This document shows positions 20,766 to 38,225 of a DNA stretch of 42,732 nt, piece after piece. The DNA is from a virus. The translations under genes were made by a program, and so were the position numbers. Under the pieces are notes generated by a model, which saw nothing but the letters and a program-made list of their open reading frames with translations, did no database searches and had not been told where the DNA came from. Each line of letters starts with the position of its first letter. Position 1 is the first letter of the stretch. The stretch covers positions 1-42,732 of IMG/VR virus record IMGVR_UViG_3300037231_000114. One strand, written 5' to 3'.

Positions 20766-23045
20766 ATGTCTGACGAAACCCTGCTTGAAGAGATCCGCGA
20801 AAATTTCGACGACGATGTCCTCGAATGGGCTGACATCCGCGAAGCCGGCAACGAGGACATGCGCATTATCGCGGACGGCCCGTGGACCGACAAAGAGCGG
20901 AAAGAACGCAAAGCCGACGACCGCCCGTGCCTGGCTTTCGATGAGCTGGGGCAGTACACCAATCAGGCGATCGGCGACATGCGCCAGAACAAGCGCGCCG
21001 TCAAAGTTACCCCAAAAGGCAATGGCGCGACGGATACGACCTCGCAGAAACGCGCGGGGATGATCCGCGAAATCGAATACAAATCGAACGCGCAGATGGC
21101 CTACGCGACCGCCTTCGAAAGCCTGATTAAACGCGGCTATGGTTACTTCAAACTGGCCGCGGAGCTATGCAGCGAAGAGGGCTTCGAACAGGAATTGGTG
21201 GTGCTCCCGATCGTCAATCCGGACACCGTCCTGCTCGATCCGTACGCGAAGAAACCCGACTGGTCGGACATGGGGCACGGGTACCTCATCGATTCCTTCT
21301 CCGAAAAAGCGTTCGTGAAACGCTGGCCGGATGCGCAGATTCAGAGCTTCGAAGGCGAGAACGCGGAGATCGCGTCGGCCTGGATCAAAAACAATCGGAT
21401 CCAAGTTGCGGAATACTGGCGCACCGAAAAGAAGGGGCGCCGCAAGCTGCTGCTCGATACCGGCGACGCGGACAACCCGACCGAGATGTTCCTCGACGAG
21501 CTGCCCGATGGCGCCAAGATGCACGACAGCGCCGTCCACGTAACGATCAAGGGCCAGAAGCATAAAATCCCGATTCTCAACACCCGCAAAACCGAGAAAA
21601 CCATCGTGGTGCAATACATCACGAACGGCCTCGAAATTCTCGAAAAGAAAATCACCAAGTGGCTGGAAATCCCGATCATCGCGGTCTTTGGTCCTGAAGA
21701 GTATGTGAGTGAGGGACCCGGCGGCGGCTCCAAACGGCGCCTCCTCTCGATGGTCCGGAAGGCGCGCGATTCCTACAAGGCATATTGCTACACGCGCACC
21801 AACGAGGTCGAAATCATCGGCATGGTTCCGAAGGTTCTGCTGCTCGGCTATGAGGGCCAGTTCGCGACGAACACGCCATGGAAGAACGTGAACAAGGTCG
21901 CGATTCCCTATGGCGAAGTGAAAGCCATCACCACGGCAACCGGCAAGGAAGTGCTGCCGCTCCCCGAGCGTCAGCTCTACGACCCGCCAATTCAGTCTCT
22001 CGAAATGGCGTCCTCGGCTTTCAAAATGTGTATCCAGTCCGCGATGGGTGTCGGCAACGGCATGGTGTCGGGGAAGGGAAATCAGTCGCTCGACGCGAAG
22101 TCGGGCAAAGCGATCGACGCGCTCGATCGCCAGGAATCGCAGGGCACTTTTGTATACATCGCGAATTTCGAACGCGGTCTCGAGCGCGGAGGGCGCCTGC
22201 TCGATGCCGCGCTCGACTGGTGCTATGACACCCCACGTGAGGTAGGTAGCCGCAGCCCGGATGACAGTTATTCGAGCGAGAAAATCAATCAGCCGGTGCA
22301 GGGCGCGGACGGGCAGCCGACGCAGTTCAACACGGCCGACGGCGATCACGGCGTCACCATCAGCGTCGGACCCTCTGACCAATCGACGCGCGATGCGGCC
22401 GAGGACGTGGTCGAGCAAATTGTGGGAATGCCGAACCCGCCACCGAAGGCGATCGCGCTCGCGATCAAGCTGAAAAACCTCGGCCCGATCGGCGACGAGC
22501 TGGCTAAAGTTTTCGATCCCGACACGCCGGACCCGAAGATCGCGCAACAGCAGGTGGCCGGCCTGCAGGCTGAATTGCAAAAGGCGCATGCCTACGGGCA
22601 GATGCTGTTCGAGCAGATTCAGACCAAGCAACCCGAGCTGAACGTGAAGCTCGAAATCGCGCGGATGCAAGAGGAAACCAAACGCGTGCTCGGCCTGGCG
22701 ACGATCAACGCGGAGCAGGCACAACAGAAGCTCGACAAGGAACTCGGCATCGTTGACGATGCGGTCGGCCGTGTTCACGAGGCCAACATGGAAAACCTCA
22801 AACACGGCAACAAGAAAGAGCTAGCCGCGCAGGCAACGGCGGCCGACCGAACGGCTCAGGGAAGCGACCAGGCGCACGACACGGCGTCCCAGGCGGCCGA
22901 CCAGGCCCACGAGGCCGCCCAGGCTACGCAGGCGCAGGGCGCGGCGGCGGATTCGCAGGAATCGGCGCAGGATGCGACCGCGGACCAGGCTACCCAGGCT
23001 CAGGATGCGGCTGCCGATCAGGCCGCGTTGAAACCGGCCGCATAG
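20766..23045 (+). CDS. Portal protein, P22-like
   Basis: The 759-residue protein (P22 Gp1 is 725) starts MSDETLLEEIRENFDDDVLE. It has the P22-portal markers DMRIIADGPWTDKERKERKA, RPCLAFDELGQYTNQAIGDM and NPDTVLLDPYAKKPDWSDMG. The body contains the wing and crown parts, and the C-terminal 150 residues are a helical barrel followed by Ala/Gln/Asp repeats (QATQAQ, AADQA). As the dodecameric ring it joins head and tail and channels DNA. Confidence 0.92.
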   Translation: MSDETLLEEIRENFDDDVLEWADIREAGNEDMRIIADGPWTDKERKERKADDRPCLAFDELGQYTNQAIGDMRQNKRAVKVTPKGNGATDTTSQKRAGMIREIEYKSNAQMAYATAFESLIKRGYGYFKLAAELCSEEGFEQELVVLPIVNPDTVLLDPYAKKPDWSDMGHGYLIDSFSEKAFVKRWPDAQIQSFEGENAEIASAWIKNNRIQVAEYWRTEKKGRRKLLLDTGDADNPTEMFLDELPDGAKMHDSAVHVTIKGQKHKIPILNTRKTEKTIVVQYITNGLEILEKKITKWLEIPIIAVFGPEEYVSEGPGGGSKRRLLSMVRKARDSYKAYCYTRTNEVEIIGMVPKVLLLGYEGQFATNTPWKNVNKVAIPYGEVKAITTATGKEVLPLPERQLYDPPIQSLEMASSAFKMCIQSAMGVGNGMVSGKGNQSLDAKSGKAIDALDRQESQGTFVYIANFERGLERGGRLLDAALDWCYDTPREVGSRSPDDSYSSEKINQPVQGADGQPTQFNTADGDHGVTISVGPSDQSTRDAAEDVVEQIVGMPNPPPKAIALAIKLKNLGPIGDELAKVFDPDTPDPKIAQQQVAGLQAELQKAHAYGQMLFEQIQTKQPELNVKLEIARMQEETKRVLGLATINAEQAQQKLDKELGIVDDAVGRVHEANMENLKHGNKKELAAQATAADRTAQGSDQAHDTASQAADQAHEAAQATQAQGAAADSQESAQDATADQATQAQDAAADQAALKPAA

Positions 23046-23166: not shown

Positions 23167-24159
23167 ATGGCTGACGAACAAACCGGAGAATCGTCCACTC
23201 CCGAAGAAATCAACGCCTTGTCCGACGAGGCACTGAACGCGCGCGATTTTACGCGCTACCAGGAAATTGAAAACGCACGCGAAAGCGGCAAGTCGATCCC
23301 CGAGGCCTCGACACCCTCAACTGAAACACCCTCCGACAAAACGCCGGCCTCGGAACCCGGAACCAAAGAAACAATACAGGAACCGAAAAAAGCGAAAACC
23401 GGAGAGGATCGCAAGATAGAGCTGGCAGCGGAAATCCAAGTGCTGCTGAAGCAACGCGCGGAGCTGCAAGGCAAAACGGAAACACCAGGCGAGAAAAAAG
23501 CGGATCCGCCACCCGCTGCCGTGACGCCCGCAGTCGTCGTTCCCAAGGCGGAATCCGCCAAGGGCGCGGCGCCGAAGAGGCCAAGTCTTGCCGATTTCAC
23601 CACGCTCGACGAATATGACGCTGCCACCGACGCCTTTATAAGCGACCTGGTCGCGTTCAAAGCGGGCGAGATTATCACCGCGCGTGATACGGAGCGGGAA
23701 GCTACCGCCACTCAGAAAACGCGCGACGCGGAATGGGTGAAGAAAGTCACCGCGGCTAAAGAGGAATTTTCGGATTTCGACGAAATCGCCTTGAATCCGA
23801 AGACCCTGTTAAGCCCCGTCACCGTGCAGTACCTGAAAACGAAAACGGGTACTGACGAAGCGCGGGTGCTCTACAAGCTCGGTGAAAACGATGGCGCGGA
23901 AGCCAAGAGAATTTTGGCGCTGGATCCAATAGACCAGGTCGAAGCTCTCGGCGACATCAAGCGATCGCTCGCCACTCCGGTTAAAAAAGAAGCTCCTGTA
24001 ATAAAGAAACACACGACTGCGCCCCCGCCGGCGACAAACCTCGGTGGTCGTGACACCGAGCCAAACGACGCGGTCGACGCAGCTCTCAACTCGGGCGACG
24101 TGAAGTCCTACATGGACAAAGCGAACGCCCGCGATCGCAAAGCCGCTTCTAACAGATAA
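23167..24159 (+). CDS. Scaffolding protein
   Basis: The 330-residue protein (P22 Gp8 is 303) has AGGAGC upstream. It has a short helical start, a highly charged disordered middle rich in Lys, Glu, Pro and Thr, and helical parts (PAVVVPKAESAKGAAPKRPS, then VTAAKEEFSDFDEIALNPKT). The C-terminus (RILALDPIDQVEALGDIKRS, then a basic end) is the type of region that binds coat protein. Position between portal and coat makes this assignment likely although the sequence is poorly conserved. Confidence 0.8.
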   Translation: MADEQTGESSTPEEINALSDEALNARDFTRYQEIENARESGKSIPEASTPSTETPSDKTPASEPGTKETIQEPKKAKTGEDRKIELAAEIQVLLKQRAELQGKTETPGEKKADPPPAAVTPAVVVPKAESAKGAAPKRPSLADFTTLDEYDAATDAFISDLVAFKAGEIITARDTEREATATQKTRDAEWVKKVTAAKEEFSDFDEIALNPKTLLSPVTVQYLKTKTGTDEARVLYKLGENDGAEAKRILALDPIDQVEALGDIKRSLATPVKKEAPVIKKHTTAPPPATNLGGRDTEPNDAVDAALNSGDVKSYMDKANARDRKAASNR

Positions 24160-24177: not shown

Positions 24178-25410
24178 GTGGCAAATAATTTCGTCTTCGC
24201 TGACTGGGTCAGCCTGGAGACGCTTCGCCTGCTCACTAACAAGAGCCAGGTCGCCCAATTTTTCAACACCGATTACAACAAGGAATTCCAGAAGAGTTTC
24301 GCGATCGGTGACACCGTTCGTGTGAAGCTGCCGCAGCGCTTCCTCATCACCAACGGCCTCGCGTATCAGGAACAGCCGATCGACCGCCGGTACACCACCG
24401 TCGCGATCGACCAGCCGTTCGGTGTGCATTTCGGATGGGACGACATCGAAGCCGCGTTGAAGCTTGAGCGCCCCAATGAAGCCATCCGCAAGGAGTACAT
24501 CATCCCGGCCGCGACGCAGCTCGCTGCTGAGCTGGACTCGCGTTGCTCGCTGTACGCCTACCAGAACACGAACAACATCACGGGCGCTCTTGGAACCACG
24601 CCCACGCTGCCCGTCACCTACGGCGCCGCGCGCACTCGCCTGAACGAGAATTCCTGTCCAACCGGCGAGCGCGGACTGATCATGAGCCCGCAGATGGAGG
24701 AAACTCTGTCGGCTGGGACCATCCAGTACTTCAACCCGCAGGATGCCATTTCCAAATTGTGGAAAGAGGGATCTCTCGGCCGCTTCCAGGGCTTCGACAC
24801 CTACGAGAGCAACCAGCTCTATAACCACACGGCCGGCACGATCGCCGGGACCAACACCATCACCGGCGGCAACCAATCCGGTTCGCAGCTCCTGATTACC
24901 GCGACTGCCGGCGACACCTATTTCGTCGGCGACGTATTCAACCTGACCCTCGTGAATAACGCGAACCCGGTCACGCGGCGCAGCACCGGCCGCTTGAAGC
25001 AGTTCGTGGTTACCGCACCGCTCACTTGCGCGGGCGGCGGCGCGGACGCGCTTCAGATCTCGCCCTCGATCGACGGTCCGGGCAGCCAGTACCAGAACGT
25101 GGATTCGCTGCCGCTCGCCGGCGCGACGATGACCATGTTCCCCGGCACGACCTCTCCGAACGGGAAGTCGGGAATGCAGGGCCTCGCGCTGACCAAATAC
25201 GCTTTTGCGCTGGTCGGTGTGAAGCTCGAAAGCCCGACCTCGCAGGAAATGGCGTCGCAGATGCGCGACCCCACCACCGGCCTGTCGGTGCGCTTCGTCC
25301 GGTCATGGGACCAGGGTAGTTCCTCGATGCGGAACCGGCTCGAAATGGTGGTCGGCTTCGGGAACCTCTACCCCGACAATGCCGCCGTCCGGGTGGAATC
25401 ACTCGCCTAA
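24178..25410 (+). CDS. Major capsid protein, P22 coat-like
   Basis: GTG 24178 lies 7 nt after AAGGA. The 410-residue product (P22 Gp5 is 430) begins MANNFVFADWVSLETLRLLT. It has the P22-coat features SFAIGDTVRVKLPQRFLITN (N-arm and E-loop part) and IDQPFGVHFGWDDIEAALKL. It also has a middle insertion-like domain (residues 215-290, NTITGGNQSGSQLLITATAG) and an end with VRVESLA. HK97-fold shell protein. It is followed by a 9-bp hairpin. Confidence 0.92.
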   Translation: MANNFVFADWVSLETLRLLTNKSQVAQFFNTDYNKEFQKSFAIGDTVRVKLPQRFLITNGLAYQEQPIDRRYTTVAIDQPFGVHFGWDDIEAALKLERPNEAIRKEYIIPAATQLAAELDSRCSLYAYQNTNNITGALGTTPTLPVTYGAARTRLNENSCPTGERGLIMSPQMEETLSAGTIQYFNPQDAISKLWKEGSLGRFQGFDTYESNQLYNHTAGTIAGTNTITGGNQSGSQLLITATAGDTYFVGDVFNLTLVNNANPVTRRSTGRLKQFVVTAPLTCAGGGADALQISPSIDGPGSQYQNVDSLPLAGATMTMFPGTTSPNGKSGMQGLALTKYAFALVGVKLESPTSQEMASQMRDPTTGLSVRFVRSWDQGSSSMRNRLEMVVGFGNLYPDNAAVRVESLA

Positions 25411-25467: not shown

Positions 25468-26160
25468 ATGAAGAAACTAATCCTGTCCTTGTTCGCGTTC
25501 GCGGCCTTCGCCGCGGCGCAATCCAATTTCATCTCGCAGACCAGCCTCACCGCGGCTATGACTGCCACGCAGAACTATGCGCTGGTGGCTTCGGCCACGG
25601 GTCTCGCGACTACGCGTGTCATCAAGGTCGACGACGAACTGATGACCATTAAAACCACTTACAACGGGAGCGCGCTGAACGTTCCGGTGACTCGCGACGG
25701 CGCGAAGAAAAGCGCTCACATTTCGGGCGCGATGGTTCTCGGCGGCCGGCCCGATTGGTTCCAGACCTATGACCCGTTCGGCGCCTGCACGGCGGCTGCT
25801 CAATATGCCTACCCGTGGGTGAATACGTCCAACGGCCACGAGTGGCTGTGCGGCCTGCTAAACACCTGGATTCCCGGATTCCAGAACACCAGCACCGCGC
25901 AAGGCATCTCGCCTGCGGTCGCCTCCGCGGCCGGCTTAATCACCCCCAGCGGCCCGCTGTTTCATGTGACGGGCGCGCTCGCTGTTACCGGATTCAATAT
26001 CCCGCTCGGCTTCTCGAAAGGCAGCTTCTGCGTGATTCCGGACGGCACCTTCACTACCACGAACGCGAATAACATCGCGATCGCGTCGACGGCGGTTGTG
26101 AGTAAGCAGCTCTGCTTCACCTACGACGCCAACACCTCGAAGTTCTATCCGAGTTATTAG
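25468..26160 (+). CDS. Exported protein A (signal peptide) in structural operon
   Basis: ATG 25468 starts MKKLILSLFAFAAFAAAQSN, a clear Sec signal peptide cleaved after A-A-A before Gln. The mature 212 residues include a module (SLTAAMTATQNYALVASATG through ACTAAAQYAYPWVNTSNGHE) homologous to the N-terminus of the gene at 26449. A GFNIPLGF...SFCVIPDGTFTTTNA beta-rich end follows. Four cysteines may form disulfides in the periplasm. Position directly after the coat gene is unexpected for an exported protein. Function unknown: candidate decoration, adhesin or surface-modifying protein. Confidence 0.8.
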   Translation: MKKLILSLFAFAAFAAAQSNFISQTSLTAAMTATQNYALVASATGLATTRVIKVDDELMTIKTTYNGSALNVPVTRDGAKKSAHISGAMVLGGRPDWFQTYDPFGACTAAAQYAYPWVNTSNGHEWLCGLLNTWIPGFQNTSTAQGISPAVASAAGLITPSGPLFHVTGALAVTGFNIPLGFSKGSFCVIPDGTFTTTNANNIAIASTAVVSKQLCFTYDANTSKFYPSY

Positions 26161-26173
26161 GCCATTTCTCCAA

Positions 26174-26203
26174 GGGGCGGCGGGCACGTTTAAACGCCGT
26201 CCC
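26174..26203 (+). terminator. Hairpin with T tract after exported protein A
   Basis: GGGGCGGCG (26174-26182) pairs with CGCCGTCCC (26195-26203), one G-T pair, with a 12-nt loop. TCATTTTCC follows, so this is the best terminator-like element in the late region. The small gene at 26227 follows at once, so read-through or attenuation is expected. Confidence 0.55.
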
Positions 26204-26226
26204 TCATTTTCCAAAGGACCACCACA

Positions 26227-26424
26227 GTGATCGACGAAAAGAAACCAAAACCCCCTTACGTCCACCAGGACTTTCCGCGCGTGCTGTATCTCGACGACCA
26301 GACCGCGGTCGTGAAAGATGCTGCCGGCGAGAAGGCTGCAACCGCGGCCGGCTACTCGCGGACGCCTCAGGCTCCCGCGACTGAAGAGCCGGCCCTAAAA
26401 GACAAAGGCAAGAAAACTAAATAA
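26227..26424 (+). CDS. Small head- or tail-associated hypothetical protein
   Basis: GTG 26227 has AAAGGA 8 nt upstream. The 65-residue product opens MIDEKKPKPPYVHQDFPRVL and has YLDDQTAVVKDAAGEKAATA, then GYSRTPQ and a Lys-rich end. The pattern FPRxLYxxDxxxxxVxxxxEExAxxxxGYxxTP occurs in small phage proteins near capsid genes, so it may decorate the virion. No signal peptide. It separates two exported paralogues. Confidence 0.6.
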   Translation: MIDEKKPKPPYVHQDFPRVLYLDDQTAVVKDAAGEKAATAAGYSRTPQAPATEEPALKDKGKKTK

Positions 26425-26448
26425 CCCGCGCGAAGGCCGACCGACACC

Positions 26449-27924
26449 ATGAAAAAACTAATAGCAATTTTGTTTGCCGTCGCCGGCCTTGCCAGCGCAC
26501 AGAATCACACCCTCAGCTCCACCACGCTGACAGTCCCCATGACGATCGGCCAGGCATATATTCAGATCGCGTCGGCGGCCGGCCTGGGCGCCGGCTCCGG
26601 ATCGATCGCCAACCCGAAGCAGATCTGGGTCGACCGCGAATTGCTGATCGTGCAGGCGAGTTACAACGGGACCTCGCTCACGGTTCCCGTAACGCGCGGC
26701 TCGATCAAGAGCACCCACGCCTCGGGCGTTGCCGCGCTCATCGGCTCGCCGGCCTGGTTCTACCGATCCGACGCGACGGGCGCCTGCACGGCCGCTACCG
26801 TGTTTGTGACTCCGTGGGTGAATATCCTCGACGGCAATCAGTACCTGTGCTCTGCGGGCACCTGGACGCTACAGGGCGGGGGCGGCGGTTCCATCAGTCT
26901 CACCACGACGGGAAGCAGCGGCCCCGCGACTTACGCGGGCGGCGTGCTGAACGTTCCGCAATATGCGGGCACCAGCTCGGTCGGCGCCTGCACCATGACA
27001 CTCGCGGGCGCCACTGTGACTTATCCGAACGCGGCGACGGGCAACGGATCGGGCGGCCCTTGCAGCCTCTACAAGATCACTCTCACCGGCAATGTGACCA
27101 CCGCGAGTCCTTCGACCAATCCTGCCGGCATGACCACCGGCCAGCTCTACACCTTCGCTATTACGCAGGATGCGACGGGCGGCCGAACCTGGCCAGGTAC
27201 CGCCTGGCCTTCAACGTTCTCGAACGTCCCGACCGTCATCATCCCGGATAAGTCTCAGACCACGTCCTACGTGTGCACCTGGGGCGGCTCGGCGTGCGTG
27301 GCGGGCCTGACCGTGACCACCGCGCCTTACAGCCTCGGCGGCGGCGTCACCTTCGCGACACTCACCGCGGCAACGTCCTGCAGCTCGCTGTCGGGACCCG
27401 CTTACGGCACCGTGTCTGATTCGACCGTGGACGCGCTCGGCTCAACGATCACCGGCGGCGGCTCTTATGCCGTGGGTGCGTTCTGCTTCGCCGGCAATTG
27501 GGTCGTGTCTGCGGGTGTGGCGAGTAGCGGTTCGGTCGGATGCGGCGGGCCTATTTCCGCAATTTCCAGCTACACCAACGTCCTCGCCGGCGATAACTAC
27601 ATGTGGGTCAACCCCGCAGCGGTCACCACATCCATCGGCGCTTCGGCCGAGGGGCTGATGCCCCAAACGTGCACCGCGGTCAGCTTGAATATTAATGTGC
27701 CTGGGGCCGTCGGGGCGTCGGGCGCGCTGACAGTCACGCTCTACGACGTCACCTTGTCGGCGGCGACAGGTCTCACCATTTCGATCCCGGCAAACTCGAC
27801 GGCGGCGGTCTATCACAGCGTCGGGGTTACCGGCGCCATTGTGGCGAATCACGTATATACCTTGCATCTCGCCAATGCGGGCGGATCTACGATCTCAAAC
27901 AACTGGTTCTGGTCTCTCCAATAA
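26449..27924 (+). CDS. Exported protein B (signal peptide), beta-rich, paralogue of A
   Basis: ATG 26449 starts MKKLIAILFAVAGLASAQNH, a Sec signal peptide cleaved after A-S-A before Gln. Its first 130 mature residues match exported protein A: (D/S)ATGACTAA..., PWVN, a QYLC/EWLC cysteine, and the (V/I)PVTR turn. The remaining 350 residues are Gly/Thr/Ser-rich beta segments (SLTTTGSSGPATYAGGVLNV; TAATSCSSLSGPAYGTVSDS), as in fibre or adhesin repeats. It is a likely surface-exposed or virion fibre-like protein. Confidence 0.82.
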   Translation: MKKLIAILFAVAGLASAQNHTLSSTTLTVPMTIGQAYIQIASAAGLGAGSGSIANPKQIWVDRELLIVQASYNGTSLTVPVTRGSIKSTHASGVAALIGSPAWFYRSDATGACTAATVFVTPWVNILDGNQYLCSAGTWTLQGGGGGSISLTTTGSSGPATYAGGVLNVPQYAGTSSVGACTMTLAGATVTYPNAATGNGSGGPCSLYKITLTGNVTTASPSTNPAGMTTGQLYTFAITQDATGGRTWPGTAWPSTFSNVPTVIIPDKSQTTSYVCTWGGSACVAGLTVTTAPYSLGGGVTFATLTAATSCSSLSGPAYGTVSDSTVDALGSTITGGGSYAVGAFCFAGNWVVSAGVASSGSVGCGGPISAISSYTNVLAGDNYMWVNPAAVTTSIGASAEGLMPQTCTAVSLNINVPGAVGASGALTVTLYDVTLSAATGLTISIPANSTAAVYHSVGVTGAIVANHVYTLHLANAGGSTISNNWFWSLQ

Positions 27925-27925
27925 A

Positions 27926-30900
27926 ATGCGCAAACTCTCTCTGCTCTTCCTCGCGGCGGGACTCGCCTGCGCGCAAAGCACACTTCTCGATCTGACCACC
28001 GGCTCGGGCGGCGCGTCCTGGGTTGGAAGCGGATCGCCGGTTCCCACGTTCCGGGTCGAGTTCCGCATGCCTATGCCCGTGGCGGGCGTGACCATTATTG
28101 CTAACTCCGGCGTGCTCGGCGTCCTGGATTGTCTGACCAACACTGACTCGATCGAAAGCCTGACCTGCAACCTTGGCGACGGGACCGGCTCTGGCAACGC
28201 CGAAACACCGGTTACTTCCGGCGCCGATCTGCGGGTGCGTTTCCAGCGCGATTTCGTCGGACTGACTTACACGCTTGAGACCTGGGCGGGAAATTGCACC
28301 AATCACACCTACACCCAAAAGCCGATCGTCAGCCAATCTTCGGGTCTCGCGCAAGCGTCCACCTTCACTCTCGCGGGGAGCCAGGTATTTAGTTTCCTTC
28401 GCGGCTATCCGGCCCTCGACACGGGCGGCGACTGTCCGACTGATAATCCTGCGATCGCGGCAACGCTCTTTGATTTTCCCTTTGAGATTTTGACCGGCGG
28501 TTCGCCGGCAGACACCAGTCCGAATGGCTATACGCCGACCATCGCGAGCGGTTCGAGCTACACGAGCTCGGCGCCTTACACACCTTCGGCCGCGGTCACC
28601 GGCACCGGCATCTCGACGGTCACAGGAACGCTTTTGGATGTGGGATCGCAGAACCAGGCGTTCACTTTATCCGCGGCAAACTCGGTCTGCTTCACTTACC
28701 CCGGCACCGGCCTTTGCGCGAGCTATGCGTGGTCTCAGACCTCGGGCACCGGCTGTTCCTTCGGGGCGTCCACGTCGGTCAGCTCGCCGGTCACCTGCAC
28801 CGCTGCAGGGCAGTCTGTTCTCGGCCTCTCGATTTCAGATGGCACCAATACGGCCACGGCTTCGCAGACCATTGGCGTCGTGGCGGTCACTGCGAGCGGA
28901 GGCACGACGCTGACGGGAGACTTCGCGGTCACTTCTGGCAATGTGCTCCGCTACGGACTTTCTCCCTGGCCTTGGTATGACGCGACCTTGGCCGCGGACC
29001 TCAATATGATGAGTCCCGCGGTGCAGGCAACGCCCACCGGCGTGGCTGGGGCTGGCACCGTGGGCATCCCGAGCACCGGTATCAACACGCTCGGCTATTG
29101 CGCGGCCGGTCCGTTGAATCTCTGCATCACCGAGAACACCTACCCAGGCGTAGCCATTCAGGGCGTCGGCACGAATTTTACCAGCGCGGACATCGGCACT
29201 TACATCGAAATCACCTGGGACCCGGACGGGAACGGCAGCAACCTGGGCCATTACGTCACTTATATCTCGCAAGTTCCCAGCTCCCTCATCGCGGTCACTG
29301 GCTCTTACGGCATCCTCGAACCGGTCGCCCCTCTTGCGTCGGGCCTCACTTGGCACCGGCTCGCGGTAGGAACAGGCACGCAGGGCACCTGCACGGCCAC
29401 CGTGGCCGGCGGCCAGCTCACCGGCATCACTTGCCCTTCATCCGCCAATTACCGGTGGTGGGCTCCGGGCCCTCCATCGGTCACATTGAGTGGCGGCGGC
29501 GGAAGCGGGTGTCCGGCAATCTCGGCAGTCGTCAGCCCCTATCCCTCGACCACGGGGGCCATCGTCGGTTTCATCAATGCGAACAGCGGCGCTACGGTGT
29601 TGCCGTGCGGCTCCGGCTACACGTCCGCGCCTTCAGTGGCCCTCGTCGCTTATAGCGATTGGATGGGGCTTTATGATGCGGCAAATCAGAGCGCATACAC
29701 CCTCGATTATTACGAAGCAGGCCTCGCCATGGGCCGCTTCGCGGCGTCCACCGGCTTGACAGCCTATCAGACGCAATTTCATTCGTTCTGCACCAATTGG
29801 TGGAGGTGGGCTCTCGACAGCGGGTATGCACCCCCCATTCCTCGCTACTCGGGGCTGAACTTCATGCTGGCCTGCGCGACTGATCCAAGTTGGTCCAGCG
29901 GATCGACCCCGGCGCAGCCCCCGAATATGGTCTCCGGCGTGGGGCGGCTCATCACCGCGATGGCGCCCAACCTTTATACCTCGACCACTACAAACGAGTC
30001 GGGATCGGTCCCAACGGCTGACGCCGCGCCGGCCCTGAACGATCCTCGCGAGGCGAGCTACGTTTTGCGGCCGTCCTCCTTGCTCTGCGCGATTGGGAAC
30101 GACTATCTCGGCGGCCTCGGCACTACCTGGTGCGGGAACGTCCAAGCGCAGCTCACGCATCTGTGGGAAGCGACGGCGCAGCCACCTGCCGGCTACAGCA
30201 GCTCCACCTATAACTTCTATGCGGAGAACACCTTTTTCCAGAATCCCACCCTGCCGCTCGCGGCCTCGCCCGCGCTGACTGGACCCTTCGGCACCGCGCC
30301 TTGGCGCAGCGACAGCCTCCCATCCATCGCGCTGACCTACGCCTACGACGCGCTGGTGAGCCAGGGTTATTCGACCGCGGCTGCGCCGCTGCTGAATCTC
30401 ACGACAGGCGCGGGCCTCATTCCGAGCCTCGCCTCTTACATTCGAGACTTCGGCCGCTCAGCAGACGGCGGTATTTTTGCCAACACCCAATATGCGAGCT
30501 GGTCGAACGCGGAGCCTGGCTGGGATGCCTCTTACGGCGGAAACTTCTTTGTCTATAACTCGCTTTATGTGAACGGGTATGTCTCCGTGTCCGGCACCGC
30601 GGTCACCGCGACCAGCGCCTCTTTCTCGCGGCAGTTCTATCCCGGCGCCGTGGGGAACTTCTGCCAACCAGGCGGTACCGGCTGCGCCAACGCAACCATC
30701 GCCACGGTCCCCACACAAAACTCGATGACGCTCACGGGCGCCTTCTCTGGCTCGGCGATCAGCGGCTCGAATTCCTTCTCGAACACCGCGGTCGCCACCT
30801 TCACCAATGGCAGCAGTGCCGTCGTCGGATCGACGCTTGTGGGCAGCGTCGGGCCTACCGGCTTCACCACGATGTTCGCGCCGTGCAACGGCACGACCTT

Positions 30901-31807
30901 CATCAGTATCGACAATACAGCGGTAAGCCCCAACGACCGCTATATCGGGCAGGTGATGTCCTGTGCGGACGATCAGCACCTCACCATGAACGCGGCCTAT
31001 CCCGGCACGACGGGCACCTTCGGTTCGTTTGCGGTCAGCGGCGCCGGGCAAACCAATTGCGCGCCGATGTCCATCACAACGCTTTGCCAGGCTGACGACT
31101 ACGGCGGCCGGAATCTCTCGGCCGACATCGGCGCGGTGCCGGCGTGGCTCTACGCGAAAACCGGGGCAGCTCCCTGGAAGGCGCTGCTCGACTATTACTA
31201 CAACAAAATGTTCGGCGGCGCGGCCGGCGGATCCGGATCTCTAGGCACGCCGGCCGGCACGCTGACCTATCTCCCTGGCACGGTCACGGTGGTCGCGGGA
31301 TCTCCCACGGTCGCCGGTATCGGCACCAGTTTCCTATCGCAGTTTGCGTGCAACGGAACCGATTCGATTACGGTGGCCGATGGCCTGAGCGGGGGCACCT
31401 GGGCCACCTATGGAGCGGGCGCTTTCAACACGCCGGTTTTCTACACCACTAGGGTCGCGTCCTGCGCCTCGAATGGCACGTTGACGCTCGCGTCTCCCTG
31501 GCCTTCGGCGGCGTCCGGCTCGACCGCGACGAACATGTTCTACAACTCGATCGACCCCGCATGGCAGGGCGCTGACGGGGGCACCGGCAACCTTGGGGAA
31601 ATTCTGCCGGGCTGCGGGACCGGCCTCTTGCCATGTAGCGGTGCCGTGCCGTTCAATCAGCACTACGGCAAGCCTGTCGGCATGGCCGCCGGGGCGGGGA
31701 ACGTCCCCCTAGCGATGGCCGATCGCGCGGCAAACCCCGCGGCGCCGTCCACTGGCTCGGTCAACCCGGGCGGCTTCTTCCGCGGCATCATCCACCTGTT
31801 CTTCTAG
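27926..31807 (+). CDS. Giant exported protein C (1293 residues)
   Basis: ATG 27926 overlaps the previous stop region (TAAAATG) and starts MRKLSLLFLAAGLACAQSTL, a Sec signal peptide cleaved after A-C-A before Gln; a lipobox is not matched. Beta-sandwich-like Thr/Ser-rich repeats follow (residues 100-330). Next comes a helical, Trp/Tyr-rich middle (YYEAGLAMGRFAASTGLTAY; FHSFCTNWWRWALDSGY; GNDYLGGLGTTWCGNVQAQL). The end has beta repeats. The middle resembles helical-toroid glycan enzymes, so glycan cutting is possible. The largest protein here; it may be a secreted or tail depolymerase-type protein. Confidence 0.75.
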   Translation: MRKLSLLFLAAGLACAQSTLLDLTTGSGGASWVGSGSPVPTFRVEFRMPMPVAGVTIIANSGVLGVLDCLTNTDSIESLTCNLGDGTGSGNAETPVTSGADLRVRFQRDFVGLTYTLETWAGNCTNHTYTQKPIVSQSSGLAQASTFTLAGSQVFSFLRGYPALDTGGDCPTDNPAIAATLFDFPFEILTGGSPADTSPNGYTPTIASGSSYTSSAPYTPSAAVTGTGISTVTGTLLDVGSQNQAFTLSAANSVCFTYPGTGLCASYAWSQTSGTGCSFGASTSVSSPVTCTAAGQSVLGLSISDGTNTATASQTIGVVAVTASGGTTLTGDFAVTSGNVLRYGLSPWPWYDATLAADLNMMSPAVQATPTGVAGAGTVGIPSTGINTLGYCAAGPLNLCITENTYPGVAIQGVGTNFTSADIGTYIEITWDPDGNGSNLGHYVTYISQVPSSLIAVTGSYGILEPVAPLASGLTWHRLAVGTGTQGTCTATVAGGQLTGITCPSSANYRWWAPGPPSVTLSGGGGSGCPAISAVVSPYPSTTGAIVGFINANSGATVLPCGSGYTSAPSVALVAYSDWMGLYDAANQSAYTLDYYEAGLAMGRFAASTGLTAYQTQFHSFCTNWWRWALDSGYAPPIPRYSGLNFMLACATDPSWSSGSTPAQPPNMVSGVGRLITAMAPNLYTSTTTNESGSVPTADAAPALNDPREASYVLRPSSLLCAIGNDYLGGLGTTWCGNVQAQLTHLWEATAQPPAGYSSSTYNFYAENTFFQNPTLPLAASPALTGPFGTAPWRSDSLPSIALTYAYDALVSQGYSTAAAPLLNLTTGAGLIPSLASYIRDFGRSADGGIFANTQYASWSNAEPGWDASYGGNFFVYNSLYVNGYVSVSGTAVTATSASFSRQFYPGAVGNFCQPGGTGCANATIATVPTQNSMTLTGAFSGSAISGSNSFSNTAVATFTNGSSAVVGSTLVGSVGPTGFTTMFAPCNGTTFISIDNTAVSPNDRYIGQVMSCADDQHLTMNAAYPGTTGTFGSFAVSGAGQTNCAPMSITTLCQADDYGGRNLSADIGAVPAWLYAKTGAAPWKALLDYYYNKMFGGAAGGSGSLGTPAGTLTYLPGTVTVVAGSPTVAGIGTSFLSQFACNGTDSITVADGLSGGTWATYGAGAFNTPVFYTTRVASCASNGTLTLASPWPSAASGSTATNMFYNSIDPAWQGADGGTGNLGEILPGCGTGLLPCSGAVPFNQHYGKPVGMAAGAGNVPLAMADRAANPAAPSTGSVNPGGFFRGIIHLFF

Positions 31808-31833
31808 CCGAATATAGCCAGCTCCATTCTCTC

Positions 31834-31846
31834 GGGCGTTTCGCCC
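31834..31846 (+). other. Small hairpin before Gp4-like gene
   Basis: GGGCG-TTT-CGCCC is a perfect 5-bp stem between the giant-protein stop and the AAGGAAG ribosome site of the next gene. It may protect or regulate the downstream mRNA. Confidence 0.35.
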
Positions 31847-31860
31847 TGCAAGGAAGTCCC

Positions 31861-32550
31861 ATGTCTTTAGTCAGCGATATTCTCACAGAGGCATTTCTCG
31901 ACCTCGGCGCGATCGCGCCAGGCGAAACCAACACGACGGCCGAGCTGGCCGACGCCTTCATGCGGTTGAACCAGATGATCGCAAGCTGGTCGACCGAGCA
32001 GCTCACGGTGCCGAGCATGGTCCACGCGGCTTATCAGCCTACCGCCGGCGTCACGATCTACACGCTTGGACCCGCAGGCACGTTCACCACGGCAGCGACG
32101 GCGATCCGCGTCACCGGCGCCTCCTCGGTCCAGGGCAACTTCCGCTCGCCGATGAAGGTCATGTCCTGGGACCAGTTTGCCGCCGAAGTTGCCGACCCGA
32201 AGGCTTCCTCGAGCGTGCTCGCCGAGGTGCTCGCCGCGGACGGATCTTTCCCATCGATCAACCTAAAAATATTCCCGACGCCGGCGGCCGGACCCGGTAC
32301 GCTGTGGCTCGACTACTGGTCCGCGATCACGCAATTCGTCACGCAGGCCGACACGATCAACCTGGCCTCGGGCTGGGAAGTCGCGCTGCATTCTAATCTC
32401 GCCGTCGCTCTTTATCCGCAGTACGCGCGCGCCGGCGGCATCCCTCCGGAGCTGGCCGCGCTCGCGCAGTCGAGCAAGGGCGCGCTCAACGCGCTGAACA
32501 TGCGGATTCTCGGCCAGCAGCAACAGACTCCCCCCCAGGCAGGACAATAA
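31861..32550 (+). CDS. Gp4-like head-tail adaptor, copy 1
   Basis: The 229-residue protein has AAGGAAG before the ATG. It matches the P22 Gp4 tail-accessory type: SDILTEAFLDLGAIAPGETN, AFMRLNQMIASWSTEQLTVP, TIYTLGPAGT and a C-terminal helical half (NLAVALYPQYARAGGIPPEL). P22 Gp4 is 166 residues. It attaches under the portal and begins tail assembly. A homologous second copy lies at 34769. Confidence 0.85.
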   Translation: MSLVSDILTEAFLDLGAIAPGETNTTAELADAFMRLNQMIASWSTEQLTVPSMVHAAYQPTAGVTIYTLGPAGTFTTAATAIRVTGASSVQGNFRSPMKVMSWDQFAAEVADPKASSSVLAEVLAADGSFPSINLKIFPTPAAGPGTLWLDYWSAITQFVTQADTINLASGWEVALHSNLAVALYPQYARAGGIPPELAALAQSSKGALNALNMRILGQQQQTPPQAGQ

Positions 32551-34766
32551 TGCGGTCTCTCATCTTACTCGCACTTCTCGCCGGCTCGGCGATCGCGCAG
32601 ACGCCCGTGTTCCCCGGCGGCGTCGCCACGGACTCGGCGCTCGGCGTCGCTCGTAACAATATCAGCGACCAGCTCACATCCGGCCTCTCTGCCACCGGCA
32701 CTAGCATGACGGTTCTAAGCGGCGCGGGCATCGTGCCGAACATGCTGCTCTCTCTGAATAAGAACGCGCCAGCTCCCGAAATCGTGTGGGTTTGCCAGGT
32801 AGTAGGAACCACCGTAGGAACCACCATCACCATCGGAAAAGGCACCTGTCCGAGCGTCAACGGCCGCGGCATCGACGGGACCGTCGCCACCGCACATGTG
32901 GAGGGCGAGTCGGTAATGAACGTTCCCGTCTCGTGGTACTCGAACGCGCTCCGCGTCGAGGTGGAGGCGCTTGAGGCGCAGGCGATCGGCGGCGGCGGTA
33001 CCGGCGGGAGCGGGCCTTTCCTCTCGGCGTTGAACTACAATTTCACCGCGCAGACACCTGGCGGATCTATCACCGCGTCGATCATCAACACGGTCACCCT
33101 CACTCCGGTCCCTGCCGGCGTGAACGGCGCCGACGCTGGGCACATGCTCTATTTGTCGGGCGGTACCGGCACGGCCGAAGCGGTTCTAATCTCGGGCGGC
33201 ACAGCGGTCTCGGGCACTGCAACGGGCACCATCTTTTTCACTCCCGCTCACGCGCACTCGGGAGCGTGGACGGTTACGAGCGCGGCGGCCGGCATCCCCG
33301 AAGCGCTCCAGGTTCTTGTGACCGCGGGCGGCGGCACGGTGGTCGCGGGCGGGGGCACGGCGCTCACTGTGAACGGCAATGTGTCCGTCGCCGGCACCGG
33401 TCTGGCTCTGCACTTTCTCGGCTCCGGCGCGACCCTCGCGAACGGCGCCTCGATTCTGATGGCCGGCACGAATAACTCGGTGGCCGGCGAAGGCGGGACC
33501 ATACTGACGGCTACCAGCACGGGCGGGGATCTGATCCAACTGAATAGCTGTGTAAATTGCACCATCTCGGGATTGTTTTTGATCCGGGGAACCTCGGGCC
33601 GGCCGGCGGTTTCGGGTGCGGGCATCGACGTCGCGTCGGGAGGCAACACGTCGCTGCGTGTGTCAAACATCACAAGCGAATACAACTACCGCGGCATCTG
33701 GGCGCAGGTTTCCCCGGTGCTTTCGTCGTGGGATGCGATCCAGGTGCTCAACAACGTCACCCAAGGCATCGAGTTCGATGCCGACAACGACGAGCATTTC
33801 ACAAATGTCTGGGCGCTCTACAACGGCGGGCACGCTTTGCAGGTGGGCAACGGCACGTCGACTACCTACTGCATCGGCGGCTTCAGAATCGCGAATTTTG
33901 TGACCTATGCCAACGGCGGCGATGGCGTCCACATCGTCGGCGCGTCGGGCTTCCCTTGCACTTATGTTTTTCTCGACAACGTCCACGCCGACACCGACAC
34001 GGGCTACGAACTTTACGTCCAAAACTCCAGTGCCATAACCGCCGTCAATTCGCAGTTCATCAACGGGAAAGGCGGTTACGTCGGCACCGGAGCCTCCTTC
34101 GTTTCCCTCGGCACCGCGCGCTTCAATGGCTCGTCGGGAATCGGGCTGCACATCACATCCACAGCGACGAACATTCAGGGCAACGGAGTGCTGGTCGGCG
34201 ATGCCAGTTACGGGTTCGCTGCCACCTATCCCGAGTTGCAAATCGACGGCACGGTTTCGAACGTGAACATCGCGGGGTTGACTCTCAACTCGGCCGACGC
34301 TACATCCTCGGCGGGAGTCCTGATCTCAGGAACGCCCAGCGCGATTCATCTAAGCAGCGTGCAAATGCTCGCGGGCAGCAACATGAACACGCCCGTCAGC
34401 ATGGTGAGCGGCCTTACTGATGTTTTCGTGGACGCGCAGAACTGGCTAACGATGACCCTCGCGGCTGGATGGACGACTGTCAGCACGCCGCAATGCCGCC
34501 TCGAAATGAACGGCCTCGGCGTCCGCTGCGAAGGAACCATCACGGCCGGCACCACTGCGGATGGAACCGTGATTTTCACACTGCCTGTCGGCTATCGTCC
34601 AAACCTTGCGCGAGCTATTCCGGTGGTCTGCCTCACCGGCGGCGCCGTTCCCTCCGACACCAACTCTTGCACTCTCGCGGTGGGTATTAACGGCGCCGTC
34701 ACGATCTACGGCGTCGGTGCGAACTCTTACATCCGCATGGACGCCCTCGCGTTCGCGAACAACTAA
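32550..34766 (+). CDS. Exported tailspike-like beta-helix protein (signal peptide)
   Basis: ATG 32550 overlaps the previous stop (TAATG) and starts MRSLILLALLAGSAIAQTPV, a Sec signal peptide cleaved after A-I-A before Gln. After a leader domain (residues 25-150), residues 280-560 are a right-handed beta helix: repeated strand-turn patterns such as NCTISGLFLIRGT, LRVSNITSEYNYRGIWAQVS and FTNVWALYNGGHALQVGN. The C-terminal part (residues 620-738) is beta-rich. P22 tailspike Gp9 is 667 residues and has no signal peptide. It probably binds or cuts surface glycan. Confidence 0.8.
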   Translation: MRSLILLALLAGSAIAQTPVFPGGVATDSALGVARNNISDQLTSGLSATGTSMTVLSGAGIVPNMLLSLNKNAPAPEIVWVCQVVGTTVGTTITIGKGTCPSVNGRGIDGTVATAHVEGESVMNVPVSWYSNALRVEVEALEAQAIGGGGTGGSGPFLSALNYNFTAQTPGGSITASIINTVTLTPVPAGVNGADAGHMLYLSGGTGTAEAVLISGGTAVSGTATGTIFFTPAHAHSGAWTVTSAAAGIPEALQVLVTAGGGTVVAGGGTALTVNGNVSVAGTGLALHFLGSGATLANGASILMAGTNNSVAGEGGTILTATSTGGDLIQLNSCVNCTISGLFLIRGTSGRPAVSGAGIDVASGGNTSLRVSNITSEYNYRGIWAQVSPVLSSWDAIQVLNNVTQGIEFDADNDEHFTNVWALYNGGHALQVGNGTSTTYCIGGFRIANFVTYANGGDGVHIVGASGFPCTYVFLDNVHADTDTGYELYVQNSSAITAVNSQFINGKGGYVGTGASFVSLGTARFNGSSGIGLHITSTATNIQGNGVLVGDASYGFAATYPELQIDGTVSNVNIAGLTLNSADATSSAGVLISGTPSAIHLSSVQMLAGSNMNTPVSMVSGLTDVFVDAQNWLTMTLAAGWTTVSTPQCRLEMNGLGVRCEGTITAGTTADGTVIFTLPVGYRPNLARAIPVVCLTGGAVPSDTNSCTLAVGINGAVTIYGVGANSYIRMDALAFANN

Positions 34767-34768
34767 CC

Positions 34769-35572
34769 ATGAGCGCCTTTAACTCCCCGACCGCATTCAA
34801 TGCCGGCGGCGCCGGTGCCGGCGCACCCGCCGGCACGCCGCTGATGACCATTCTAAAAATGGCGCTGCGCCTGGCGCACGTCACGAAGGCTCCTGGTCGC
34901 GGTCCCTCGATCGATCAGTTGAGCGAAGCGTTCACGTTGGCGAATCTGATGCTGTCGCACTGGAACACCAGCAGGCTTAGAATCCCCAGCATCCAGATCA
35001 ACGCGTACCCGCTGACGGGCGCGAAAATCTACACCATCGGCGGCCCGGGCCTCGGCGCCAACTTCAACGTCCCGCGTCCGCAGAAGATCGTCGGCGCGGA
35101 CGTGATCCTGATCGGCAATCCCAACGTGCGCTACCAAATGCGCGTGATCGAGGAACCGCAGTGGCGCGCGATCGGGGTGCAGGATATCCCGGGCGGCATT
35201 CCTTCGCGGTTGTATAGCGATCGCGCATCCCCTATCACGTCGCTTTACGTGTTCCCGCAGGACCCCGGCTCCGGTTATCAGTTGGAGCTTTACACCTGGC
35301 TGCTGCTGCAGGCCTTTGTCGGACTCGCCGACGTAATCAGCCTGCCTCCTGGGTACGACGACGCGATCACCTATAACCTGGCGCTGCGCCTCGCCGACAC
35401 CTTCGAAACGGTCGTGAGCGAGAACACCTATGCGATGGCGGCGGTCGGCCTCGGCATGATCGAGAGCTTGAACTCACCGGTTCCGCGGCTGTGCAATGAC
35501 GCGGCCGGCCTCGGCGATAGCGGACGCGGCAACGACGCCCACTGGTGGCTCACCGGAGGCTACGGCGGGTGA
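34769..35572 (+). CDS. Gp4-like head-tail adaptor, copy 2
   Basis: The 267-residue protein has a Gly/Ala-rich start, then the same fold as copy 1: MTILKMALRLAHVTKAPGRG, EAFTLANLMLSHWNTSRLRI, KIYTIGGPG and a helical half (DAITYNLALRLADTFETVVS). Pairwise similarity with the gene at 31861 is plain over residues 25-95. The two copies may form different adaptor rings, or one may replace another tail protein. It overlaps the hub gene (GTGA). Confidence 0.82.
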   Translation: MSAFNSPTAFNAGGAGAGAPAGTPLMTILKMALRLAHVTKAPGRGPSIDQLSEAFTLANLMLSHWNTSRLRIPSIQINAYPLTGAKIYTIGGPGLGANFNVPRPQKIVGADVILIGNPNVRYQMRVIEEPQWRAIGVQDIPGGIPSRLYSDRASPITSLYVFPQDPGSGYQLELYTWLLLQAFVGLADVISLPPGYDDAITYNLALRLADTFETVVSENTYAMAAVGLGMIESLNSPVPRLCNDAAGLGDSGRGNDAHWWLTGGYGG

Positions 35573-37308
35573 AAATTCCACTGGTCGGCGAGGACTATGC
35601 GTCGCGCTCGAAAGCGGTCTCGGCACAAACCTGCATCAACGTTTTTCCGGCTTTGATCGACGACCCGGACGAAGCCCAACAGACGCAGACGACGCCTTAC
35701 AACTCGACGCTGCAGGGCAAGAACAAGGGCGTGCTTTACGGCTGCCCGGGCAAACACCTGTTCGCCTCGCTCGCGGCTCCTCCGCGCGGACTCTGGTCCG
35801 GAGGCGGCCGGCTGTTCGTCGTGGTCGGCCTGCAACTGATGGAGCTGAGTTCGACGGGCGCGGTCATTTCGAGCAATACCATCGGCGGCGGATCTCCACC
35901 GGCGAACGACGACCTGCCTGTCGGCATTTTCGTGAACGGCGATCAAATGATGATCGTTACCGGCGGCTTCGCCTATTGCGTGAACGACGGCGTGCACCCG
36001 GTGCTCATCACCACCGACAATTCCACCGGCGACGTGAACTGTTTCGGCTTCGGTGTCGGCTGGGTGGACGGCTCTCAGTTCCTCGACGATGGAAGCTGGG
36101 TCGGCCGCACCATCACCATCAACGGCGCGAATTACACGATCTCCGCGACGCCGGCACCGCCGACCACCACGCAACTTTACGTGACGACGGCGCTCGCTGT
36201 GGCCTCGCCTCCGACTTACACGTACAGCGTGCTGGGGCTGCCTCTCACGGCGGTTTGCGGCGCCTATCTCGACGAGACGTTCTTCGTCCTGCGTCCACCC
36301 GGGCCTGGTCCCGGCGGCACCATCGGACAGAACCTCGGTGCGCAGGTGAACTTCTCTGCCGTGCTCGATGGCACCACCTGGTCCGGGCTCGATTTCTTCA
36401 CCAAGGAATCGTATGCCGACAATTGCCGATCGATTTTTGTAGACAACGAACAGCTCTACCTGTGGGGCACCGAGACCTTCGAGGTGTGGCAATCGGATCC
36501 GAACGCCACCGTCGACGGCAACCCGTTTATCCGGCTGCCTGGCGCGACGGGACGGTTCGGCAACATCTCGACCTGGGGCAGCGATCACATCGACGGTCGC
36601 GTCTTTTTTGTGGGTGGCGACGATCGCGGCGGCGCCGTCGCGTACGTGATGAACGGCTTTACTCCGGTTCGCATCTCCGACCACGCCTGCGAAGCCGAAT
36701 GGAAGCTGGCCGGCCTCGGACCGAACGCGGTCATGTACACCTACATGGAGGAAGGCCACTCATTTGTTGTTATCAATTTCGGGCCGCAAACCTGGGTTTA
36801 TGAGGCAGAAAGCGGCGCCTGGCATCAACGCTACAAATGGAACGGCGCGGCCTTCGTCTCCTATCTGACGAACCTGCACACCTTCATCCCGGAGTGGGGT
36901 TCGAGCGGGATGCACATCACCGCATGCACCACCGGGACGAACAATGTGTACAACTCCTCGTCGAATTTCTTCGACGACGAAGGCACCGACATTTGTTGGG
37001 AGCGGCAGCTCCCCTATCTCTATAACAACGGCATGCGTATGTTTTTTGGGCGTCTCACGCTCGAAATGCAGACGGGCGCCGAGGCCTCGGGCACGCCCGT
37101 CGTCACTATGAATTATTCAGACGATCGCGGCGCGACCTTCGCCAATCCGCGCACCTGCTCGATCGGCGCCCCTGGTGTCACGAATGCGCGCGTCTACTGG
37201 CTCCGCGGCGGGAAGTCTTACGGCCGCGTCTATCAGCTTTCGGGCGTCGGGCAAAGCGCCGTCGCGCTGATCGACCTGCAGTGCGACGTTGAGCTGGGCG
37301 TGGTGTGA
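35569..37308 (+). CDS. Gp10-like tail hub / packaged-DNA stabilisation protein
   Basis: GTG 35569 has GGAGG upstream and overlaps the previous stop. The 579-residue product (P22 Gp10 is 472) starts MKIPLVGEDYASRSKAVSAQ with the hub-family opening ...SxxxxxQxCINVFPxL. It continues KNKGVLYGCPGKHLFASLAA, GGRLFVVVGLQLMELSSTGA and a beta-propeller-type body (FEVWQSDPNATVDGNPFIRL). The end is beta-rich. It caps the DNA channel below Gp4. The longer ATG at 35545 is rejected because the GTG is better placed. Confidence 0.88.
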   Translation: MKIPLVGEDYASRSKAVSAQTCINVFPALIDDPDEAQQTQTTPYNSTLQGKNKGVLYGCPGKHLFASLAAPPRGLWSGGGRLFVVVGLQLMELSSTGAVISSNTIGGGSPPANDDLPVGIFVNGDQMMIVTGGFAYCVNDGVHPVLITTDNSTGDVNCFGFGVGWVDGSQFLDDGSWVGRTITINGANYTISATPAPPTTTQLYVTTALAVASPPTYTYSVLGLPLTAVCGAYLDETFFVLRPPGPGPGGTIGQNLGAQVNFSAVLDGTTWSGLDFFTKESYADNCRSIFVDNEQLYLWGTETFEVWQSDPNATVDGNPFIRLPGATGRFGNISTWGSDHIDGRVFFVGGDDRGGAVAYVMNGFTPVRISDHACEAEWKLAGLGPNAVMYTYMEEGHSFVVINFGPQTWVYEAESGAWHQRYKWNGAAFVSYLTNLHTFIPEWGSSGMHITACTTGTNNVYNSSSNFFDDEGTDICWERQLPYLYNNGMRMFFGRLTLEMQTGAEASGTPVVTMNYSDDRGATFANPRTCSIGAPGVTNARVYWLRGGKSYGRVYQLSGVGQSAVALIDLQCDVELGVV

Positions 37309-38225
37309 TCGCTCCCACGGTTCCACCCCAAAGCTCGCCTTTCTCGGATCAGGGTCCGGGCCTTTTCAACAAATCCTGGTGGCTGTTTTTGAAGGATGTC
37401 GCGTATGGGCTCAGCCTGGCGCTTCGAATATCAACCTCCGGCACTCACGCACAGAGGCTGAACCCGAGGAATCCGCCGGCTTCGAGTTTCCAGCAGGGGG
37501 CCTTCTATCTCGAAAGCGATCGTGGGGTCACATATCAGAACCGCATGGTGATGGTGGGCGCCGCGAATCTCCCGACGTGGGTTTACGCCTTTGGCGAAAT
37601 GGCGGCGCTGCTCGCCGCGATCCCGACCGACCTCGGCGTGAACGACGCGGGCTTTATCTTCGATGTCCTCGACTTTAACCACCGTCTGCAATGGTCCGGT
37701 ACCGCGTGGGGCTGGGCGCCTGGCGATGAGGGTAGCGGGCGCATGGTGGTCTGTGAAATCGATCCCACCGGCGCAGGCTGGCACCTGTATGACGGCAGCG
37801 CGGGAGTGCTCTACCTGAAAGCGACGGGCGCCACCGGTACAATCACGCTGCCTAACCTGGTCGGCGTCACCACGGACGCGGCGTTCATCGTGGCGGGCAG
37901 TCCGAACGGCGGCCCGAACGCTGCCACGGCGCCGACAATCGGCGGCTCGACCGCGACCGCGTCCGCGGTTACCGGCCTGACGAATCCGGCGGCTACGGGA
38001 TCGACGAGTCCGGGCAACACCGGTGCTCCAAGCGCGACCGTCACGGCAGCCAGCGGCAGCGGCATTACCGTGGCGACGTTCGCCCATACGCACATCGAAG
38101 CGGCGCACACCCACAGCATCGGGGCACCGGCCGATCCCGGCCACGTCCACACATTGACCGGCATCACGGCCGGCACGGACGGAACCCCGGCCAACCTGGT
38201 GCGGCGGCCATGGTTCCGCCAGTGA
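37305..38225 (+). CDS. Fibre-like tail protein with HxH metal-binding end
   Basis: GTG 37305 overlaps the hub stop. The 306-residue product begins with a short helical region. Next is a beta region with FNKSWWLFLKDVAYGLSLAL and LESDRGVTYQNRMVMVGAAN, then a Thr/Ala/Gly collagen-like linker. The C-terminus holds His pairs (FAHTHIEAAHTHSIG and GHVHTLTG, three HxH units). Such HxH pairs bind iron in phage tail tips and fibres, making a needle-like trimer. Likely the tail needle or fibre; P22 needle Gp26 is 233 residues. Confidence 0.7.
   Translation: MIAPTVPPQSSPFSDQGPGLFNKSWWLFLKDVAYGLSLALRISTSGTHAQRLNPRNPPASSFQQGAFYLESDRGVTYQNRMVMVGAANLPTWVYAFGEMAALLAAIPTDLGVNDAGFIFDVLDFNHRLQWSGTAWGWAPGDEGSGRMVVCEIDPTGAGWHLYDGSAGVLYLKATGATGTITLPNLVGVTTDAAFIVAGSPNGGPNAATAPTIGGSTATASAVTGLTNPAATGSTSPGNTGAPSATVTAASGSGITVATFAHTHIEAAHTHSIGAPADPGHVHTLTGITAGTDGTPANLVRRPWFRQ

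Follow-up and report, generated by a model that had tools for sequence, protein, structure and literature searches.

The window analysed here, the whole 42,732-nucleotide (42.7-kb) stretch of IMG/VR virus record IMGVR_UViG_3300037231_000114, comes from a soil phage and contains a P22-type head-tail operon, with a P22-type coat protein (PF11651, phrog_283), gp4-like adaptors (phrog_12985) and a gp10-like hub (phrog_578), in which four proteins, P0001 to P0004, begin with predicted Sec signal peptides. We put at roughly one in two the probability that these four are peripheral virion appendages that Sec exports, that are cleaved ahead of Gln and oxidised in the periplasm, and that attach to the particle at lysis.

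Four predicted Sec preproteins between coat and hub

By sequence criteria, P0001-P0004 are well supported as genuine Sec/signal peptidase I preproteins, with both export and cleavage predicted. Signals were called with a rule-based score rather than with SignalP, built on a positive n-region, an 8-residue hydrophobic core and an A-x-A-type site. The four proteins score 3.7-4.4 and the rest of the window's called genes (~50) all fail, with Gln at position +1 of the signal peptidase site in each of the four (Table 1, where a slash marks the predicted cut). Shuffled N-termini of the window genes reach a score of 3.6 or more in 18 of 10,000 trials, and the confinement of 4/4 signals to the 7-gene coat-hub interval out of 51 genes has a hypergeometric p of ~1.4e-4. 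The initial annotation had described these four signals, each ending A-x-A and then Gln, and had judged them too alike to be due to chance; all four are present as described, and the shuffling and hypergeometric figures bear that judgement out. Its count of four signal genes among six needs amending, since the interval holds seven genes once a 65-aa open reading frame (ORF) is included. The motifs give no indication of a lipoprotein or Tat signal on any of the four proteins.

Conservation of the signals among relatives

Starts, signals and the A/Q junction are conserved among relatives despite sequence divergence. A coat-alignment scan yielded 30 coat-relative loci (numbered L, as are the other loci below), and a signal-bearing P0001 homologue stands directly after the coat gene at L002-L006, L008-L010 and L017 and is displaced from it by ~0.5 kb at L030. 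Loci in bacterial metagenome-assembled genomes (MAGs) also carry one, namely L036 (Acidiferrales) and L039 (binned as Betaproteobacteria), together with L040 (an Acidobacteria MAG), where the signal lies under the score cut-off and was identified by eye. In all, the P0001 signal is kept in homologues at at least 13 loci. The signal sequences themselves drift, as in MKKLILSLFAFAAFAAA/Q, MKTLKTLTLFATFAALAAA/Q and MKIKNLFLALAFAGLFPLAAYA/Q, with charge, core and A/Q retained. In L004, whose 44.7-kb contig was examined from end to end, six genes of the coat-hub interval look signal-bearing, one of them recognised by eye below the score cut-off. Across the coat and portal loci collected first, signal genes make up 33/162 of the genes downstream of the coat versus 6/222 upstream (p 1e-8), and 31 of those 33 have an A-x-A/Q-type site.

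Signal genes of other kinds were seen as well. A remoter clade (L020:2198-2623, L021:12030-12455, L022, L025, L026, L031) has a 141-142-aa Sec-signal gene with 4 Cys, located between the post-coat gene and the adaptor and beginning MRRVALGLLALAALVTVPLQA/QPRFEPIRC in L020; the other structural genes of this clade are mostly without signals. A 680-aa Sec-signal gene with 9 Cys stands after the hub rather than before it at L069:755-2797, on the contig of L003, and six successive Sec-signal genes, one of 1223 aa, occupy L115:461-9709 in a 63.6-kb virus contig. A 229-aa tail-region gene at L102:3530-4219 starts MVDMNTSRRGFLGMLAGAVLA and is Tat-like in appearance.

Signal-bearing and signal-less spikes in one gene slot

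Scans with the P0004 N-domain collected homologues of both kinds. Those with a signal come from the window, L006 (two genes), L102, L103, L105, L109, L113 and L119, and in all of them A-Q or S-Q immediately precedes the shared domain; those without come from L106, L121-L138 and L140-L143. Several of the signal-less spikes begin M-S-T-P-T-P-V-F-P-G where the exported form reads ...A-I-A/Q-T-P-V-F-P-G, and in these soil phages the signal-less start codon falls at about the position of the exported form's mature end. The gene order at L122, L128 and L131 is adaptor 1 (a fragment in L131), spike, adaptor 2, hub and needle, mostly with best matches to the window's genes, and the window has the same order with P0004 and its signal in the spike position. 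Because homologous spikes with and without a signal occupy the same slot, the signal is an add-on that comes and goes on one and the same tailspike gene. No second spike of the P0004 kind was seen beside the first, save in L006, where both have signals, and no signal genes were seen at six signal-less loci where the sequence covers both adaptor and spike (L121, L126, L128, L132, L133, L135). The spike-flanking genes of L103-L105 are unlike the window's, which suggests that the trait is not confined to one lineage. The N-domain tree is too poorly resolved for a count of signal gains and losses, with 5 state changes on the best tree and 1 compatible too.

The initial annotation had held that orthologues starting downstream of the signal regions would count against export. 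Close orthologues keep the signal, but several remoter ones do start near the mature end, with no upstream signal and with a different cysteine content, so that part of the expectation was realised. Signal-bearing and signal-less orthologues are two natural states of the gene and not the product of a mis-called start. As a separate observation, lone opposite-strand genes lie inside the tail slot, adjoining a signal-less spike, at L106:964-1623 and L112:6644-7534.

Cysteine content

Paired cysteines are typical of proteins that have crossed an oxidising compartment, which provides a test that does not depend on the signal itself. Downstream of the coat, the mature parts of signal-gene products have 16.9 Cys per 1000 residues versus 6.75 for signal-less proteins (Mann-Whitney p 8.5e-9), and even counts are found in 28/30 signal-bearing versus 90/162 signal-less proteins with at least two cysteines (Fisher p 2.8e-5). 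Within the P0001 family, 15/15 signal-bearing members have at least two cysteines and 4/4 signal-less ones (L015:11249, L015:12155, L017:12016, L047:822) have none (p 2.6e-4). All of these p values are optimistic, as homologues are not independent, but the pattern recurs across unrelated families. Cysteine abundance and even counts thus support a predicted passage of the signal-bearing proteins through an oxidising compartment.

Identity of the signal-bearing proteins

Homology, fold and gene slot support a fibre or spike type for P0001, P0002 and P0004. The AlphaFold2 (AF2) model of P0001 is good and all-beta (mean predicted local distance difference test score, pLDDT, 84.6), and its best match in BFVD has an E of 1.8e-16, the named matches including tail fibre, minor tail, collagen-repeat and major-tropism-determinant proteins. 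Its matches to folds in the PDB are weak (best E 1.2e-3) and give a hint only; they include tailspikes, a capsid spike and further components of phage tails. Residues 1-128 of P0002 are 48% identical to P0001, making them a second copy of the domain through which P0002 joins the type. P0001 and the P0004 N-domain are related, in that each profile retrieves the other's members, and the same stretch of phrog_9851 (tail fibre protein) is matched by P0001 and by a signal-less spike. The C-terminal end of P0004 has a minor-tail-protein domain (phrog_3639; also phrog_1798), and spike homologues match beta-helix, depolymerase C-terminal or tail-fibre families. Compared with the families phrog_9851, phrog_3639 and phrog_7578, to which P0001, P0004 and their homologues have domain matches, the window proteins have a Sec signal and paired cysteines in addition, whereas in the signal-less homologues examined the start lies at the shared domain or shortly before it.

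Host

A portal-alignment scan of bacterial genomes found six loci, four in Acidobacteriota, one in Verrucomicrobiota and one in a Betaproteobacteria MAG, with no Bacteroidota among these six MAGs; a coat scan of genome contigs gave no match. The host is therefore likely an acidobacterium, as had been guessed from the start, although the binning of phage contigs into MAGs is unreliable. Sampled Acidobacteriota genomes have A-x-A/Q in 37/73 predicted signals, and the MAG carrying L036 has it in 8/13; a strict A/Q rule in the host was looked for and not found. Since about half of Acidobacteriota signals are of this kind, those of the phage are in line with the likely host, though they are more uniform. 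VKOR occurs in 19/60 Acidobacteriota genomes and a plant-type glutaminyl cyclase in 14/60; the L036 MAG showed neither (DsbB was not searched for).

Interpretation and alternatives

According to the interpretation that we favour, the post-coat fibre-domain protein (P0001), its enlarged paralogue (P0002), the very large protein (P0003) and the tailspike (P0004) would cross the inner membrane through Sec late in infection. Signal peptidase I would cut them at A-x-A/Gln, the step that the sequences support well, and once in the periplasm they would fold and form disulfide bonds, as the cysteine parity suggests. The core parts, namely coat, scaffold, portal, adaptors, hub and ejection proteins, which have no signals, would assemble in the cytoplasm as usual, and the appendages would most likely attach to finished particles as lysis mixes the compartments, at or after lysis and possibly with a pyroglutamate at the new N-terminus. 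P22 tailspikes attach to finished particles in vitro, and joining at lysis therefore requires no new chemistry. We infer virion membership of the exported proteins from homology and position.

Several points weigh against this interpretation. The signal calls depend on a home-made score, and P0003 fits no family, with nothing above the cut-off in Pfam and nothing in PHROGs or the PDB, so that it lacks the fibre or spike homology of the others. We found no described precedent for a tailspike made outside the cytoplasm, and tblastn against 50,697 cultured-phage records returned no homologue of P0001, P0004 or the L036, L105, L128 and L132 proteins; the coat has remote relatives only in these records, at ~30% identity. 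At L123 a signal-less spike is paired with other signal genes, and a search through 396 genomes from the phylum of L036 added a single remote prophage, whose post-coat gene is signal-less and Cys-less. Taken together, L123 and this prophage indicate that neither the genome nor the host phylum alone decides the signal state.

In the chief rival reading, the exported proteins derive from fibres or spikes but act free in the periplasm or medium, as capsule or matrix depolymerases, decoys that block superinfection, or adhesins. Sec normally delivers to the periplasm, which is not a site of particle building, the spike homologues have beta-helix and depolymerase-type domains, the signal-less needle or fibre gene after the hub might take care of adsorption, and the Q-rule genes of Porphyromonas phages have been read as possible surface modifiers (PMC10367356). 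We nevertheless consider free proteins the less likely outcome, because the exported spike substitutes for a signal-less spike in its slot instead of being additional to it, because the domain at its mature N-terminus is the N-terminal domain of the signal-less spikes, and because Sec alone does not take a protein across the outer membrane. The initial annotation had left open whether the proteins are secreted to the host surface or medium, are virion parts that join outside the cytoplasm, or are localised elsewhere; their fibre or spike type by homology, fold and slot makes virion maturation outside the cytoplasm more likely than secreted host-surface adhesins and narrows the choice toward virion parts.

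The remaining alternatives appear improbable. Captured host proteins, or lysogenic-conversion cargo with no role in particle assembly, would account for A/Q signals like those of Acidobacteriota, and a serine recombinase in the window suggests a possible temperate life, but the domains resemble phage fibre proteins and not host exoproteins, and the genes keep their place in the head-tail operon from locus to locus. It is similarly improbable that the hydrophobic N-terminus stays uncut on a virion protein, anchoring it or inserting into a membrane: cleavage is a prediction and an uncut helix could aid entry, yet nearly all of the signal genes downstream of the coat retain their A-x-A/Q sites, the cysteines are paired, and signal-less homologues begin near the predicted cut. 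Least credible of all is an artefact, with start codons miscalled or N-termini hydrophobic by chance. The Shine-Dalgarno sequences of P0002, P0003 and P0004 are weak or absent and the scoring rule is our own, but none of the four window genes has a Shine-Dalgarno-preceded in-frame start shortly downstream of its signal, the signals recur at the corresponding position in many relatives, and shuffled N-termini seldom pass the score; we therefore rejected wrong start codons.

Relation to known systems and implications

P22 virion proteins are not known to carry signals. The window resembles a P22-like podovirus tail module in how coat, adaptors and hub are ordered, in the families to which they belong and in having a spike-type gene beside the adaptors; it differs in the Sec signals on the spike and post-coat fibre genes and in the two adaptors that flank the spike. 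Our literature searches, which left most subscription journals outside their scope, turned up no Sec signal on a spike or fibre of a tailed phage, in keeping with the initial view that this layout is unusual for a P22-type operon. The nearest precedent that we found lies in Porphyromonas gingivalis phages (Nixviridae), where five Q-rule signal genes with no assigned function were read as possible outer-membrane modifiers (PMC10367356). As in the window, these are phage genes whose Sec signals are cleaved ahead of Gln, but they are unassigned genes in phages of a Bacteroidota host, whereas the window's are fibre or spike genes in a head-tail operon with signal-less counterparts in the slot. The Q-rule has been described as Bacteroidetes-specific (PMC5837995); the window proteins have its Gln at +1 but are not counted here among its substrates. 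Filamentous phage pIII is a receptor-binding virion protein synthesised as a Sec preprotein (PMC8310372), but it assembles at the membrane during extrusion, whereas the window phage is a tailed double-stranded DNA phage whose head is expected to assemble in the cytoplasm. The window genes are thus a variant of known fibre and spike modules; were a two-compartment route of assembly demonstrated, it would be of a new kind.

Such a route, in which the core is cytoplasmic while receptor-binding or capsid-surface appendages are exported, cut, oxidised and added at lysis, with the signal repeatedly gained or lost on the same spike genes in several soil phage lineages, is a more tentative proposal than the one for the window itself. 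The prevailing view is that tailed-phage assembly is wholly cytoplasmic, and if the proposal is correct, morphogenesis gains a compartment. SecYEG, signal peptidase, thiol oxidases and perhaps glutaminyl cyclase would then be host factors for infectivity, and the cysteine-rich, sturdy spikes of soil phages would be accounted for. Caution is also advisable in annotation, as soil-virus genes with signals and lyase-like folds are not necessarily auxiliary metabolic genes. The idea can be tested on pairs of genomes that differ in whether the same spike carries the signal.

Gene layout and other features of the window

Table 1. Head-tail genes of the window, with predicted signals and family matches
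Feature	Position	Strand	Details
Portal	20766-23045		assigned from position and relatives
Scaffold-like gene	23167-24159		assigned from position and relatives
P22-type coat protein (reference point)	24178-25410	+	no signal; PF11651 2e-17, phrog_283 2.9e-52
P0001, post-coat fibre-domain protein	25468-26160	+	230 aa, 4 Cys; Sec signal 25468-25518, MKKLILSLFAFAAFAAA/Q, cut before Gln18
65-aa ORF	26227-26424	+	no signal; no family match; weakly similar to a small ORF in L003
P0002	26449-27924	+	491 aa, 10 Cys; Sec signal 26449-26499, MKKLIAILFAVAGLASA/Q; second P0001-domain copy at start
P0003, family unassigned	27926-31807	+	1293 aa, 28 Cys; Sec signal 27926-27973, MRKLSLLFLAAGLACA/Q
Adaptor 1 (gp4-like)	31861-32550	+	no signal; phrog_12985 1.9e-23
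P0004, tailspike-type	32550-34766	+	738 aa, 10 Cys; Sec signal 32550-32597, MRSLILLALLAGSAIA/Q; fibre-type N-domain; C-terminal minor-tail domain
Adaptor 2 (gp4-like)	34769-35572	+	no signal; phrog_12985 1.1e-27
Hub / head-closure protein (gp10-like)	35545-37308	+	no signal; phrog_578 6.3e-54
Post-hub gene, "needle or short fibre" by position	37305-38225	+	no signal; homologues after the hub in signal-less relatives; no family match
Ejection protein	38656-39810		family search

The hub, counted over 35569-37308, has 11 Cys yet no signal, in contrast to the remaining signal-less core proteins. Elsewhere in the window, the small serine recombinase (2946-3584; PF00239, DNA invertase or integrase type) may point to a temperate or inversion-using phage. 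The gene at 15187-15894 matches the phage transcription antiterminator family phrog_6386 (E 1.8e-30), and that at 16982-18214 encodes an N6/N4 DNA methylase fused to a ParB N-domain.

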